Below are positions 24,736-30,679 of a DNA stretch of 36,691 nucleotides, in pieces. Positions within the stretch are counted from its first letter, which is position 1, and each line of letters opens with the position of its first letter. Under the pieces are notes generated by a model, which saw nothing but the letters and a program-made list of their open reading frames with translations, was not told the DNA's origin and did not search any database. A program made the position numbers and the translations under genes. This DNA comes from an uncultured Clostridia bacterium. GTDB lineage: Bacteria; Bacillota; Clostridia; Oscillospirales; Ruminococcaceae. The stretch is from assembly GCA_947628655.1 (NCBI GenBank), contig CANRAS010000020.1, forward strand, positions 1-36,691, in the 5' to 3' direction.

Positions 24736-25647
24736 ATGGGAAAAGTTTACAGAAGACAGCGTATCGAGGGCGTTACCGTGCCTGCGGTGATACATAACAG
24801 GCAGTATTTTTGGCTGGATATGGCGGTCTACGAGGACGGAACAATAAGCTGTTGGGAAAAGACCGATTTGTGCGATGTTATCCGTCAGCTTGAGCGCGGG
24901 TGGCTTACGTTCGGAGTACCCGCGGGGAGTGCGCTCAGCGTTCACGGCTTGTGTACGCTCGACATAATTTCGGCAAATTGGAATTTCGACAACGAAAGTT
25001 TTCGGCAGTTTATCGAAACCACCGTGCGCTCAATTAATCCCGAAATGGCGAATATCTATGAAACCACGCCGCGCGAAAAGGAAAAATGGAAAGGACAACC
25101 GGTTGGTTTTTCCGCAAGCCCCACGCCGTTCAAAGCAGGCGAGAAATTCTGCGGTCAGACGCTTGACGGCGAGCAGATGAATGTGTTTCTGCGTCACGAC
25201 GGGGAAATATTGCTTACATCTGTCACGGCTTACTCTGACGGGACGTTTTCTGTTGACAGTCTTGACGGGGAAGAATACATTTCAACAGAGAGAATACGCG
25301 AGTTGTTTAAGGAAGATACGCTCTGCGTTTCCCCAAACGATAACGAAGCCGTAAGTTTCGGGGCGCTGGGAACGGCGGTTTGCAAGGCAAATTACACGGT
25401 AAAGAAAGCCGAAAAAATCAAGGAAATCGAAAACGCGTCACTTCGTTTAATGAACAAACCCGACGCGTTCCAAAACGCCAAGAACGCGTACATCGCTTAC
25501 CTTATAGAACCGACCGAACCCAACAAAGAAAAACTTCGCCTAGCATACGAGAGCGTTCCCGAACATCAAAGAATGTATTTGGACATGGTTGCGCGGGACA
25601 GAGATTATATCCGTATTCTTTACACGAACGAGAAAAGGGAAGTCTGA
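24736..25647 (+). CDS. Unrecognised 303-aa protein with an internal duplication
   Basis: The protein is cytosolic, with no signal or membrane segment. Residues about 5-75 and 130-200 look like two copies of one module: each has a short strand pair, then a-x-YxDG-T-(I/F)-S, then a charged helix (YEDGTISCWEKTDLCDVIRQL and YSDGTFSVDSLDGEEYISTERIRELF are the matching parts). The C-terminal third (about 230-303) is helical and charged. I do not recognise a characterised family. The start ATG follows AGGTGA. The gene stands between two copies of an intergenic repeat, without a visible promoter or terminator of its own, and interrupts the clpX-MGMT interval. It could be a resident gene or a cassette carried by recombination between the repeats. 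Confidence 0.7.
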   Translation: MGKVYRRQRIEGVTVPAVIHNRQYFWLDMAVYEDGTISCWEKTDLCDVIRQLERGWLTFGVPAGSALSVHGLCTLDIISANWNFDNESFRQFIETTVRSINPEMANIYETTPREKEKWKGQPVGFSASPTPFKAGEKFCGQTLDGEQMNVFLRHDGEILLTSVTAYSDGTFSVDSLDGEEYISTERIRELFKEDTLCVSPNDNEAVSFGALGTAVCKANYTVKKAEKIKEIENASLRLMNKPDAFQNAKNAYIAYLIEPTEPNKEKLRLAYESVPEHQRMYLDMVARDRDYIRILYTNEKREV

Positions 25648-25649
25648 TA

Positions 25650-25747
25650 TAGAGGTAAGAAGTAAGAAGTAAGAGGTCGAGAAATCCGCATAGCGGATTG
25701 TCCTCAAACAGCAGGCTTTGCCTGCTGTTTGGCAAGAAGTAAGAAAA
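25650..25747 (+). repeat. Right copy of the roughly 100-bp repeat
   Basis: Tandem GAAGTAA units (25651-25676), hairpin AATCCGC-ATA-GCGGATT (25683-25699), hairpin AAACAGCAGGC-TTT-GCCTGCTGTTT (25706-25730), then GAAGTAAG. Same order and orientation as 24602-24705. Confidence 0.82.
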
Positions 25748-25759
25748 GGCGGTCGGTTG

Positions 25760-26068
25760 GTGAATACGTTTGAGAAAATCTATGAAGTCGTGAGGAGAAT
25801 ACCCCGCGGAAAGGTTGCCACCTATGGGCAAATCGCAATGATGGCGGGAAATCCGCGCTTAGCAAGGGTGGTGGGCTATGCGCTCCACTCTAATCCCGAC
25901 CCCGGCGGTATACCGTGTCATCGCGTTGTAAACCGTTTCGGCGGTCTTGCTCCGTCCTTTGCTTTCGGAGGAGCGGAAATTCAAGCGGAAAAACTGCGTT
26001 CGGAGGGTATTACGGTTCGCGGCGACAATACAGTCGATTTGGAAATTTACTTGTGGGACGGGCTTTAA
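25760..26068 (+). CDS. MGMT-family DNA alkyltransferase-like protein
   Basis: This 102-aa protein is the C-terminal DNA-binding/active-site domain of the O6-alkylguanine transferase family: IPRGKVATYGQIAMMAGNPRLARVVGYALH (helix-turn-helix with the Arg finger in ARVVG) and PCHRVV with the alkyl-acceptor Cys. The N-terminal domain of full Ogt is missing, as in ATL proteins, but ATLs have lost the cysteine and this one keeps it. It may repair or flag alkylated guanine. The start is the GTG at 25760, following AGGCGGT. The upstream extension runs into the repeat hairpin and is unlikely to be translated. Confidence 0.85.
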   Translation: MNTFEKIYEVVRRIPRGKVATYGQIAMMAGNPRLARVVGYALHSNPDPGGIPCHRVVNRFGGLAPSFAFGGAEIQAEKLRSEGITVRGDNTVDLEIYLWDGL

Positions 26069-26100: not shown

Positions 26101-26147
26101 TTGATTTTTTGACGAAAATATGAGATAATATAATTGAACAGTGTTCA
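26101..26147 (+). promoter_or_regulatory. Promoter and palindromic operator before the pseudo-ATPase gene
   Basis: TTGATT (26101-26106), 17 bp, GATAAT (26124-26129). A perfect 13-nt palindrome TGAACAGTGTTCA (26135-26147) sits at the predicted transcription start, an ideal repressor site. Its half-site TGAACA also flanks the XRE promoter at 13028-13073. Confidence 0.62.
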
Positions 26148-26170: not shown

Positions 26171-28636
26171 ATGGCGTATTTTTTTGATTTTAAACAAGAC
26201 TACACGGGTCTTAATCCGAATAAGATTGACAATATGATTTCCATGTACGGCTTGAATACATATACAAAAGCACCGAAAAAGCTGTTGAGTTCTAATTACG
26301 CGGACATCTTGCTGTCGCCGTCCGTTTTGCTGATGTTTATTGCGGCGGTATTGTGCTTTTTCGGCGCGGGAGTGGGCGCGGGGATTATAACGCTGATTAT
26401 TCTCCTGCTTTATGTTTTCGCGGAACTTTATTTCCGAAAAAAATCCGATGAACGTCTTGACGAGATTGAGGCGTCAACCGCTATGAAATTCCGCGTCATA
26501 CGCGGAGGAAAGCTGGAACTCGTCGAAAAGGAGTTTATAGTTCCCGATGATTTGATTGTCATTCAGGAGGGAGAGCGCGTTCCCGCTGACGCGTTTATTC
26601 TCGAATCGCGCGACCTTACGGTTGACGAGTGCATTTTTACGGGGAGCAAACAGCCGTCGCAAAAATATGCGGGAGCAATCTCCAAAAGCAATATCAAGCC
26701 GACTTTCGTCTACAGCGGAACTTCTGTTTTAAGCGGGATAGCCGTGTGCAAGGTGAGCGCGACGGGCGTTGACACGAAATTGTATCATCACCACGGCGAA
26801 ATAGAAGAACGCCACCCGTATTACACAAAACTCGAAAAGACCGTTCGGTTCTTAACGCCGATTTTCAGCGCCGTGGGCGTTGGAATTGCGCTTTTGTTTA
26901 CTATTCTTAAAATTGTCGGCAGCGGCGAAGTCGTGCCGTCGGCAATAAGCGGAATTACTTTGGGACTATGTTTTATTCCGACGGGCGCGGCGACTATTAT
27001 AAGGCTTTACTACACAAAAGGCGCGGTAACTCTTATCAAAAACGGCGCAATGATGAAATCGTTTGCGGATATAGAAAAGCTGAATTCTCTGTCCGTACTC
27101 TGCGTTGAAAAGGAGGGCGCTATTTCCAAAAACACCTCCGAGGTGCGCGGGATTTATACAAAAAGCGAGGAACTGCTCTATAAAGTCGCCGCGCTGTCTT
27201 TCGACCGCAGCACGACCGACCCGTCGGAACGCGCGCTTATGGTAAAGGCAACTTTCTTTGATGAAAATATAGCGAACGTCTATACGGAAAACGAGTTTAT
27301 TGAAAGAATACCCGATATGGGAAACTCGATAAGCGGAGCTATCTGGAACGTCGGCGGAGAAAACATCTGTTGTATCAAGGGAACGCCCGAACAGGTTCTT
27401 CCGATGTGTAAGCTGAGTACAGACAAGCTGTTTGAGATAAAAAACAAATATGAAGAATACTATTCCAAAGGCTGCAGCGTTCTCGCTGTTGCGTGTGTGG
27501 ACGCAGATATATACAAGACGGAAGTAACCGCGGGATTTTCCTATACGTTTGTCGGTCTAATCGCGTTTTCAGCGCCTTTGCGCGACGCTGTTTCGTCTGC
27601 GGTAAAGACCTGCCGCCGTGCGGGTGTGCGTATCGTTATGCTTACCGAAGATAATCCCGGCGCGGCTGCGTCAACGGGCGGTATGATAGGACTTTCGTCA
27701 AAGAATGTCGTAACGGGCGCGCAGATTGAAAATGCGTTGAAAACGGGCGATAGCCTTGACCTTGACGCGGATATTTTCGCAAAGGTCACTCCCGAACAGA
27801 AAATATATATTATAAATAAGCTGAAAAGCGAGGGCGAGGTCGTTGCGATGACGGGAACGCGCACAAGCGACGCTGACGCTCTTGAGGCGGCTGATGTGGG
27901 AATTACGATTTCACAGCATTCTTCGGGCAACACCTACGAGGCGGCGGATATAGTGATGAACGATGACAATTTCCTGTCGATAGCGGAGATGATAGCGCGG
28001 GCAAGGCAGATACACAGGAACATAAAACGCGCCGTATCCGTTTTGATTTCGGGATATATCGGGCTTGTTGTTCTGGCAATAGTAAGTATGATTTGCAAAG
28101 AAGAACTTATGTTATCGCCAGCCGTCATTGCCGTAATAACTCTGCTGTTTTTGCCCGTAGGCGCGGTGCTGTATATCAATTGCAATGCGGATTTGCGTTC
28201 TAATATGCCGCCGTCGGGTTTCGTTTCGGGACATAGAATAAACTTTCCTTATGTCGGAAAATCGGCGCTTTTCGGATTGTTTGTCGGAGCGGCTGCCGCC
28301 GCGTCATATTTGTTTAAATACTCTAATATGAATGTAACATCATCAAGGAGCTGTTCGTTTATATCGTTTATGATATGTACGGCGGCGCTTATAGTATTGC
28401 GCTTTTCGGATACCGAACCGCTGAGGACGTTTTGGAACACTTCGCTTTCGCAGAAAATTATGACAGCCGTGCTTGTTGTCGTGCCGATTTTGTTCATCTA
28501 CGTTCCGCCGTTCAATTTAGCGTTCGGCTTTGCGCCAATCGGTTTCCCAAGCCTGCTTATGAGTTTGCTTTGGGGTATTCTTCCCGCGGCGGTTTATTAT
28601 GTAGTAAAACGGTTTATTCTGACGGGTGACAAATAA
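26171..28636 (+). CDS. P-type ATPase homologue lacking catalytic motifs (pseudoenzyme)
   Basis: The protein (821 aa) has the full architecture of a calcium-type P-ATPase: N-terminal actuator region, M1-M2 near 50-85, M3-M4 near 230-285, P and N domains (about 300-610) and a C-terminal membrane bundle. Nearly every catalytic motif is altered. DKTGTLT reads EKEGAIS (Glu313 replaces the phosphorylated Asp), TGES reads TGSK (157-160), the M4 PEGL reads PTGA, TGD reads TED (492-494), and TGDGVND reads TGTRTSD (561-567). The N-domain KGTPEQ is kept. The frame is unbroken and the surrounding sequence well aligned, so this is a maintained protein, not a decayed gene. It cannot pump by the known mechanism. 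It lies 15 bp before popT, with its own promoter and palindromic operator. Confidence 0.85.
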   Translation: MAYFFDFKQDYTGLNPNKIDNMISMYGLNTYTKAPKKLLSSNYADILLSPSVLLMFIAAVLCFFGAGVGAGIITLIILLLYVFAELYFRKKSDERLDEIEASTAMKFRVIRGGKLELVEKEFIVPDDLIVIQEGERVPADAFILESRDLTVDECIFTGSKQPSQKYAGAISKSNIKPTFVYSGTSVLSGIAVCKVSATGVDTKLYHHHGEIEERHPYYTKLEKTVRFLTPIFSAVGVGIALLFTILKIVGSGEVVPSAISGITLGLCFIPTGAATIIRLYYTKGAVTLIKNGAMMKSFADIEKLNSLSVLCVEKEGAISKNTSEVRGIYTKSEELLYKVAALSFDRSTTDPSERALMVKATFFDENIANVYTENEFIERIPDMGNSISGAIWNVGGENICCIKGTPEQVLPMCKLSTDKLFEIKNKYEEYYSKGCSVLAVACVDADIYKTEVTAGFSYTFVGLIAFSAPLRDAVSSAVKTCRRAGVRIVMLTEDNPGAAASTGGMIGLSSKNVVTGAQIENALKTGDSLDLDADIFAKVTPEQKIYIINKLKSEGEVVAMTGTRTSDADALEAADVGITISQHSSGNTYEAADIVMNDDNFLSIAEMIARARQIHRNIKRAVSVLISGYIGLVVLAIVSMICKEELMLSPAVIAVITLLFLPVGAVLYINCNADLRSNMPPSGFVSGHRINFPYVGKSALFGLFVGAAAAASYLFKYSNMNVTSSRSCSFISFMICTAALIVLRFSDTEPLRTFWNTSLSQKIMTAVLVVVPILFIYVPPFNLAFGFAPIGFPSLLMSLLWGILPAAVYYVVKRFILTGDK

Positions 28637-28651
28637 CATTTCGGAGAGATT

Positions 28652-29497
28652 ATGAAGAAATTTCTAGGATATTTGAAGATTTTTATAGGCGGTGTGGTTT
28701 TCGGAACGGCAAACGTTATCCCCGGAGTCAGCGGGGGAACTATGCTTGTAGTGTTCGGACTTTTCGACAAACTGACCGAGGCAATATCGGGCATTAAAAA
28801 AATATTCAGCAACATCGCGTTTTTAATAACGTTCGCGTTGGGCGCGGGCGCGGGAATATTGCTTTCGGCGAAAGTTATCGGCTCTATGTTCCAAATGTAC
28901 GCTGTTCAGACGAATTTGTTCTTTATCGGCTTAATTCTGGGCGGCGTTCCGCTTATAATAAGACTGGGAACGGCTGAACACAAGATAAAACCGCTTTGTA
29001 TAGTGCCGTTTGTAATCTCTATGGCGGTCGTTATCGGTTTAACCGTGCTTGAAAAGAACGACGTTTTCACGATGACGGCGGAGAACGTGACGGGATTTGA
29101 CGCGGTTTTCTCGCTTAAAATGATAGCCTGCGCGGCGGTCGCGGCGGTGACGATGATTATTCCGGGAATATCGGGTTCGTTTATGATGCTGTTAATGGGC
29201 GTTTACGAAACGATAATCGGCGCGCTGAACGATATGAATTTTTACGTTATCATACCGTTTGCAATCGGCGCAATTATAGGAATAATCTTCGGCGCAAAGC
29301 TGATTTCAATGCTTATCAAAAAGAACAAACTTATGGTCTATTCCGCGATATTGGGAATGGTCATAGGTTCGGTTTACGCGATACTTCCCGATGGGTTCGG
29401 GTTCAATCTTCAAACGGGTTACGGGTTTGCGTTTATGCTTATTGGCGTTCTTGTATCGGTTTTGATTGATAAACTTGGGAACACCGAAAGTGAGTAG
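28652..29497 (+). CDS. popT: DUF368/PopT family polyprenyl-phosphate translocase
   Basis: This 281-aa polytopic membrane protein has about eight to nine hydrophobic segments. It carries the two internally related family motifs NVIPGVSGGT (near residue 21) and MIIPGISGS (near 168), the inverted-repeat re-entrant loops of DUF368. PopT members return undecaprenyl phosphate from the outer to the inner leaflet for cell-wall synthesis. It follows the pseudo-ATPase gene by 15 bp with GGAGAG in the gap, so the two are co-transcribed. No T-rich terminator follows, only long GC palindromes. Confidence 0.9.
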   Translation: MKKFLGYLKIFIGGVVFGTANVIPGVSGGTMLVVFGLFDKLTEAISGIKKIFSNIAFLITFALGAGAGILLSAKVIGSMFQMYAVQTNLFFIGLILGGVPLIIRLGTAEHKIKPLCIVPFVISMAVVIGLTVLEKNDVFTMTAENVTGFDAVFSLKMIACAAVAAVTMIIPGISGSFMMLLMGVYETIIGALNDMNFYVIIPFAIGAIIGIIFGAKLISMLIKKNKLMVYSAILGMVIGSVYAILPDGFGFNLQTGYGFAFMLIGVLVSVLIDKLGNTESE

Positions 29498-30449: not shown

Positions 30450-30526
30450 TGGTACGCCCGGTGCGATTCGAACGCATGACACATAGCGTCGGAGGCTATT
30501 GCTCTATCCAGCTGAGCTACGGGCGC
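30450..30526 (-). tRNA. tRNA-Arg (anticodon CCG)
   Basis: The 77 nt on the minus strand fold as a cloverleaf: acceptor GCGCCCG/CGGGCGT (first pair G-T), D arm GCTC/GAGC, anticodon stem ATAGC/GCTAT with loop CTCCGAC (anticodon CCG, reads CGG), and TTCGAAT T-loop. The T-stem outer pair is an A-C mismatch. CCA is encoded. It is second in a two-tRNA operon. Confidence 0.95.
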
Positions 30527-30603: not shown

Positions 30604-30679
30604 TGGTGACCCACCCGGGAATCGAACCCGGGACACCTTGATTAAAAGTCAAGTGCTCTACCACCTGAGCTAGTGGGTC
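30604..30679 (-). tRNA. tRNA-Lys (anticodon TTT)
   Basis: The 76 nt on the minus strand form acceptor GACCCAC/GTGGGTC, D arm GCTC/GAGC, anticodon stem CTTGA/TCAAG with loop CTTTTAA (anticodon TTT), T-arm CCGGG-TTCGATT-CCCGG, and encoded CCA. It is first in the operon, with a consensus promoter upstream. Confidence 0.97.

Follow-up and report, generated by a model that had tools for sequence, protein, structure and literature searches.

Why would a bacterium keep an intact P-type ATPase gene whose catalytic motifs have been replaced? The question is raised by a gene on the plus strand (26171..28636) of a 36,691-nucleotide stretch of DNA from an uncultured Clostridia bacterium, referred to here as the window. 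The gene is one intact frame of 821 codons, as the preliminary description of this DNA had proposed, and it encodes a catalytically degenerate pseudo-P-type ATPase of 821 aa with A, P, N and ten-helix M regions. The Pfam E1-E2_ATPase, HAD and C-terminal domains all score above their gathering cut-offs, and the fold matches the P-type ATPase superfamily over the full length of the protein, which places it within that superfamily. In the comparison with SERCA that had been suggested as a check, residues 9–821 of the predicted structure match with the same domain order. Domain order, fold and the helix break in M4, which the structure model indicates is retained at residues 267–272, are common to the window pump and the P2A group (SERCA, SPCA and Listeria LMCA1).

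Unlike the P2A group, the window pump is without the residues on which a working P-type ATPase depends: the acceptor Asp of DKTGT is replaced by Glu313, and both the Glu of TGES and the first Asp of GDGxND (GDGVND in that group) are absent. It also differs from the P2A pumps in having no acids at the M4/M6 ligand positions. It fits none of the more specific classes that were tried, with a best score of 228 bits against a cut-off of 798 for ion-specific equivalogs, no ligand acids at 271, 657 and 661 for an ion-specific subfamily, and 23 bits against a cut-off of 431 for the P4-ATPase lipid flippase model TIGR01652. The motif readings given earlier (EKEGAIS, TGSK, PTGA, TED and TGTRTSD) all held. 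TGSK replaces TGES at 26639..26650, with loss of the dephosphorylation Glu, EKEGAIS replaces DKTGT(L/I)T at 27107..27127, TED replaces TGD at 27644..27652, and TGTRTSD replaces TGDGVND at 27851..27871, where the first Asp is lost and the last is kept (all on the plus strand).

Loss of catalytic residues across a conserved bacterial family

The window's genome, a 2.09-Mb assembly in 34 contigs, contains a single copy of the pseudo-pump, other pumps giving a handful of weaker matches, and the nearest named records come from Ruminococcaceae bacterium UBA5579 (81% identity) and Oscillospiraceae bacterium SUG235 (74%). Within the window's genus (the first genus) the pseudo-pump was found in 41 of 43 genomes, including 27/27 of good quality. 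Another genus of this family (the second genus) gave matches in 70 of 71 genomes (41/41 of good quality), and a third genus contributed a single divergent degenerate member (genome G099, locus L011). From the 41 first-genus genomes 31 distinct proteins were read, and from the 70 second-genus matches 42 distinct sequences, the remainder in each genus being judged by score. In scans at order and class level, which scored two candidates per genome, the thresholds were passed by 32 genomes out of 394 and by 21 out of 391, respectively; two of the order-level matches, in G252 and G423, are known by score alone. Outside the family no degenerate intermediates were seen among the 20 class-level loci read, all of which have an intact DKTGT and none of which is paired with a DUF368 gene (see below). 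Apart from these 20 loci, the class-level matches include the window's genome and one second-genus genome. Among relatives whose catalytic set is intact, even the nearest are no more than 31% identical to the window pump.

Six catalytic acids were scored in each of 74 distinct degenerate sequences (31 from the first genus, 42 from the second and one from the third) and in a comparison set of 23 active pumps. All six are present in 23/23 active pumps and in 0/74 degenerate sequences, which keep four (one sequence), three (21), two (38), one (12) or none (two). The Glu of TGES, present in all 23 active pumps, is kept in a single degenerate sequence and lost in the other 73, the first Asp of GDGVND is lost in 71, and the Asp of DPPR is lost in all 74. 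At the acceptor position the first genus has Glu in 31/31, the third-genus member has Asn, and the second genus (n = 42) has Asp in 27 sequences, Glu in 13, Lys in one and Gly in one. Since no degenerate sequence keeps the full catalytic set, an acceptor Asp in part of the second genus is not in itself the mark of an active pump. In one second-genus genome (G618, locus L161) the pump is very degenerate and reads IDINSVIV at the DKTGT site.

The altered loop is fixed in the first genus, with E313, K314, G316 and A317 each in 31/31, E493 in 31/31 and R564 in 30/31, and to judge from these residues a charged lock may possibly stand in place of the Mg2+-phosphate site. An enzyme that still turns over by an unusual route, through phosphorylation of Glu313 or of some other acceptor, would account for the invariance of Glu313 in the first genus, for the retention of Lys314, Gly316, D567 and the K684 equivalent, and for the acceptor Asp in much of the second genus. 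Such an enzyme would, however, have to tolerate an acceptor that varies among E, D, N, K and G across the clade, as well as the near-complete loss of the TGES, GDGVND and DPPR acids and the absence of a full set in any of the 74 sequences, and we regard it as very unlikely.

The N-domain motif KGTPEQ (27377..27394, plus strand), which had been singled out as the surviving nucleotide-binding motif, is indeed kept across the family (Lys in 66/74, Gly in 74/74), and the K515 equivalent is retained in 30 of the 31 first-genus proteins. The adenine pocket behaves differently in the two genera. At positions 381 and 386, which we take to correspond to F487 and K492 of SERCA, the first genus has Phe/Tyr and Lys/Arg, respectively, in 0/31 proteins, whereas the second has Phe/Tyr at 381 in 36/42 and Lys/Arg at 386 in 33/42. 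Because the pocket is lost, a nucleotide sensor is unlikely in the window's genus and was rejected as the main role there; in the second genus, with its retained aromatic and basic residues, nucleotide sensing may still occur.

Purifying selection and phylogeny

In the three pairs with a whole-gene dS below 1, dN/dS is 0.044, 0.081 and 0.081 over the whole gene, 0.048, 0.053 and 0.024 over the P/N region, and 0.051, 0.121 and 0.154 over the membrane helices, the highest among regions. More diverged pairs, for which NG86 estimates of dS are saturated, gave 0.05–0.09 in the first genus (six pairs) and 0.09–0.23 in the second (four pairs). The value for one active pair is 0.038 by NG86 at a dS of 3.35, and no contrast between active and dead pumps is drawn because all active pairs are saturated. 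Along the family dN/dS thus lies well below 1, indicating purifying selection. Mean column identity in the first-genus protein is lowest in the membrane regions M3-4 (0.62) and M5-10 (0.60).

The phylogeny comes from quick LG+G4 trees, with L011, L092 and L160 flagged as long branches. The first unites 45 degenerate rows in one clade (SH-aLRT 100), whose stem measures 0.94 changes per column, and the other, built from a wider variety of rows, likewise groups its 36 degenerate rows together (SH-aLRT 100). In both trees the sister group consists of active bacterial ‘PEEFP’ P-type ATPases (L013–L019, L094–L106 and L181–L200), whose catalytic motifs, unlike those of the window pump, are intact. 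A single clade on a long stem, presence in nearly all genomes of two genera and purifying selection support the proposal that the pseudoenzyme is maintained because selection acts on a new role. The pattern that would have spoken against it, intact close relatives combined with relaxed selection, was not seen, the closest intact pumps being as distant as stated above.

The same evidence bears on the reading of the gene as a copy that died recently or as an artefact of assembly. A few drafts do contain split or short frames: in G589 the pump frame is split near residue 207–215 by a frame change, and in G582 it stops at residue 766, 44 bases from the contig end, either of which may be a draft error. 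Against this stand intact frames in two genera, dN/dS well below 1 and a single old clade, which leave that reading a negligible chance; a recent pseudogene was ruled out on the grounds of conservation and low dN/dS.

Association with DUF368 genes

Fifteen bases past the stop codon of the pump gene begins a gene (28652..29497, plus strand) for a 281-aa protein of the DUF368 (PF04018) polyprenyl-phosphate translocase family. It belongs to PF04018 with 139 bits (gathering cut-off 26) and reaches 128 bits with the PopT equivalog model NF052563 (cut-off 400); because this score is below the equivalog cut-off, the substrate of the linked DUF368 protein is given here as a presumptive one. The family includes PopT, and its members are candidate translocases of undecaprenyl phosphate (UndP) (PMC9876793). 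The window's DUF368 protein differs from PopT in scoring below the equivalog cut-off, and some of the linked DUF368 proteins carry an insert of ~80–110 residues. The insert occurs in many second-genus and four first-genus members, the others being without it, and in insert-bearing proteins (L041:11197-12357, L043:11571-12668, L125–L127 and L130) the PF04018 match is split mid-protein.

A DUF368 gene lies downstream of the pseudo-pump in 28/28 first-genus and 12/12 second-genus loci with enough sequence, two of the latter having gaps of 185 and 587 bases. By genome coordinates, DUF368 is found within 1 kb in 38 of the 41 first-genus genomes, the other three pumps being at a contig end, and within 1 kb in 58 of the 70 second-genus genomes, with three more within 1.6 kb (61/70). 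Of the nine remaining second-genus pumps, eight are truncated by a contig end or lie within 228 bases of one. The ninth, in G618, lies on a long contig in a genome in which no DUF368 was found, and is a true exception; in the good-quality genome G582 no DUF368 match was found either, and its pump is at a contig end. The single third-genus pseudo-pump (G099) has no DUF368 neighbour (0/1). In G645 the pump (L160) is highly diverged yet adjoins a DUF368 gene.

Within the fetched flanks, DUF368 was found beside none of 20 active ‘PEEFP’ relatives and none of 20 further ones from the class-level sample (two of these with one flank too short), and no P-type ATPase was found beside unlinked DUF368 genes at 30 loci of the family (flanks of up to ~1.5 kb). 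The DUF368 proteins linked to the pseudo-pump form one clade (46 rows, SH-aLRT 100), which stands apart from 34 unlinked proteins and from three beside active pumps. Sixteen first-genus DUF368 matches lie away from a pump, four of them in genomes whose pump either is absent or abuts a contig end, and some first-genus genomes have a second DUF368 elsewhere. When 14 loci (12 with DUF368) were compared, 79 of the 91 pairs of loci had no other flanking homologue in common, homologues being scored at 35% identity among ORFs of ≥100 aa within 6 kb. The pair of pump and DUF368 genes travels as a unit while its surroundings differ.

This last result weighs on the possibility that the pseudo-pump has a job of its own, as a membrane scaffold, chaperone or sensor, and that the two genes adjoin merely through an operon layout passed down by descent. 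Two observations fit such a job: in G099 and G618 the pump occurs with no DUF368 gene beside it, and many second-genus members keep the aromatic and basic residues of the adenine pocket. Inherited structure nevertheless accounts poorly for a pair that persists in 38/41 and 61/70 genomes when most locus pairs share no other neighbour, and we hold an unrelated job to be a minority possibility, though the strongest of the alternatives. Gene adjacency points at most to a functional association; an AlphaFold2 model in which the pump was fused to the DUF368 protein gave a pTM of 0.70, without interface scores, and speaks neither for nor against contact.

Three second-genus genomes (G626, G631 and G406) have an intact SERCA-like pump, with CSDKTGTLT, TGES and GDGVND, directly before a DUF368 gene (L167:3313-6813, L168:2667-6159 and L169:2653-6123), and in two more (G629 and G638) a P-type ATPase match precedes DUF368 as judged by coordinates alone. 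In G406 the DUF368 gene linked to the active pump is the only one found, and the degenerate pump lies where a contig ends. That two kinds of P-type ATPase adjoin DUF368 makes a functional link more likely. An active pump with DUF368 as direct ancestor of the degenerate pair was considered and is unsupported, since the L167–L169 pumps group with SERCA-type outgroup sequences and their DUF368 proteins belong to another lineage.

The M4/M6 ion site and the base of M5

The M4 segment PTGAATIIR (26978..27004, plus strand) has lost the acid of the PE motif (271) and gained Arg278. Across the 74 degenerate sequences the acid at 271 is lost in all, and the M6 acids are lost in 73 (657) and 74 (661). 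Arg278 is present in 74/74, where the 23 active pumps have Thr or Ala. Net charge over residues 265–282 is -2 or -1 in 23/23 active pumps, +1 or 0 in 31/31 first-genus proteins, and +1 (24), 0 (15) or -1 (3) in the 42 second-genus sequences. The second Glu of PEE (272) is kept in 12/42 second-genus sequences, and some acid is found within 271–277 in 33/42 of that genus and in 6/31 of the first. The charge change in M4 is complete in the first genus and partial in the second, and a description of the ion site as inverted from acidic to basic was rejected in view of these net charges. At the cytosolic base of M5, RQIHRNIKR (28004..28030, plus strand) forms a motif that is fixed in the degenerate clade and in part new, with Q613 in 70, H615 in 69, R616 in 59 and K619 in 73 of the 74 sequences; Q613, H615 and R616 occur in none of the 23 active pumps and K619 in two. 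The patch Q-x-H-R-N-x-K is largely new to this clade.

Loss of the acids at 271, 657 and 661, the fixed Arg278 and an M4 helix break that the structure model suggests is kept are what one might expect if the pseudo-pump were an independent lipid scramblase, an anion pathway or a passive conduit that uses the former ion site, with DUF368 acting in parallel. The membrane part is, however, the least conserved of the protein (M3-4 and M5-10) and has the highest dN/dS in the three pairs, which speaks against a pathway through it, and we consider this explanation improbable.

Possible role in undecaprenyl-phosphate translocation

The explanation we favour, with a probability of roughly 0.55, is that the pseudo-pump was recruited to serve the DUF368 translocase as a scaffold, a gate or a partner that binds lipid; an old pump would then have become a non-pumping participant in building the cell wall. 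A lipid-handling partner was among the roles first put forward, and it is preferred because the neighbour that is conserved is a gene of the DUF368 translocase family. The ancestor would have been a cation-pumping P-type ATPase, nearest to the ‘PEEFP’ subfamily, whose phosphorylation, dephosphorylation and ion-binding chemistry was presumably lost before at least two genera split, the folded pseudo-pump being kept after catalysis had gone. It would be made with, and most likely work with, the downstream DUF368 UndP translocase, its ten-helix body packing beside the DUF368 protein. The body may offer a basic site for an anionic lipid or gate the lipid's access, with Arg278, which adjoins the former ion site, and the basic patch at the cytosolic foot of M5 binding or steering the lipid carrier's phosphate head, or else holding a conformation. 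The dead P/N/A headpiece could then serve as a rigid cytosolic docking or gating module and not as a motor. We infer a physical complex, lipid binding, UndP as the cargo and the direction in which one partner would regulate the other. A narrower form of this proposal, in which the pseudo-pump is an obligate ATP-independent subunit of the machinery that recycles the cell-wall lipid carrier, and in which its former ion site, with the invariant Arg278, binds the UndP phosphate and hands it to, or gates, DUF368, is doubtful, and we lowered its odds slightly because the charge change in M4 is only partial.

DUF368 and DedA proteins are candidate UndP translocases according to PMC9876793 and PMC12826051, and the former names the energetics and direction of such translocases as a future topic. 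DedA-type domains over the cut-off were found in 1/43 first-genus and 0/71 second-genus genomes, compared with 145/197 in a sample of the family, and matches under the cut-off add one first-genus and five second-genus genomes. As the genera share ancestry, this near-absence represents no more than a few independent events. In most genomes of both genera these searches found DUF368 but not DedA, and the pump gene sits next to it. That the chief UndP translocase candidate of these genera has a catalytically dead yet conserved pump for a neighbour offers a handle on the return of UndP across the membrane.

Pseudokinases and other pseudoenzymes are well known, and the P-type fold is familiar. What did not turn up in the open-licence literature searched is a conserved free-standing bacterial family in which catalysis has been lost wholesale, or its pairing with DUF368; the family provides a natural case for asking what the P-type ATPase scaffold can do without ATP. 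In that literature we found no free-standing pseudo-P-type ATPase and no paper holding both DUF368 and a P-type ATPase, and the word ‘P-type’ is absent from the main text of PMC9876793. Two known systems invite comparison. The degenerate P4-ATPase-like domain of Plasmodium GC-beta (PMC6592433) also has the P-type fold minus signature residues, but in that protist it forms part of a guanylate cyclase fusion protein, whereas the present family is free-standing, bacterial and encoded beside a transporter gene. In KdpFABC (PMC9651954) a P-type ATPase subunit works with a channel-like transporter subunit, much as proposed for the pump and DUF368; KdpB, however, is active, while the window pump has lost catalysis and its pairing is so far a genetic one.

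Other features of the window

Between clpX and the pump gene lie genes for a DUF7638/DUF7639 protein (24736-25647) and for a 116-aa protein (25718-26068) whose sole Pfam match is the 6-O-methylguanine-DNA methyltransferase DNA-binding domain (alkyltransferase-like). A promoter-like site upstream of the pump gene (26101..26129, plus strand) is a consensus match only, and is one of 23 such sites in the region, where 8.4 are expected. Further downstream, two tRNA genes are encoded on the minus strand (30453-30526 and 30607-30679), and a perfect match to a sigma-70-type promoter (30732-30704) lies just upstream of them.
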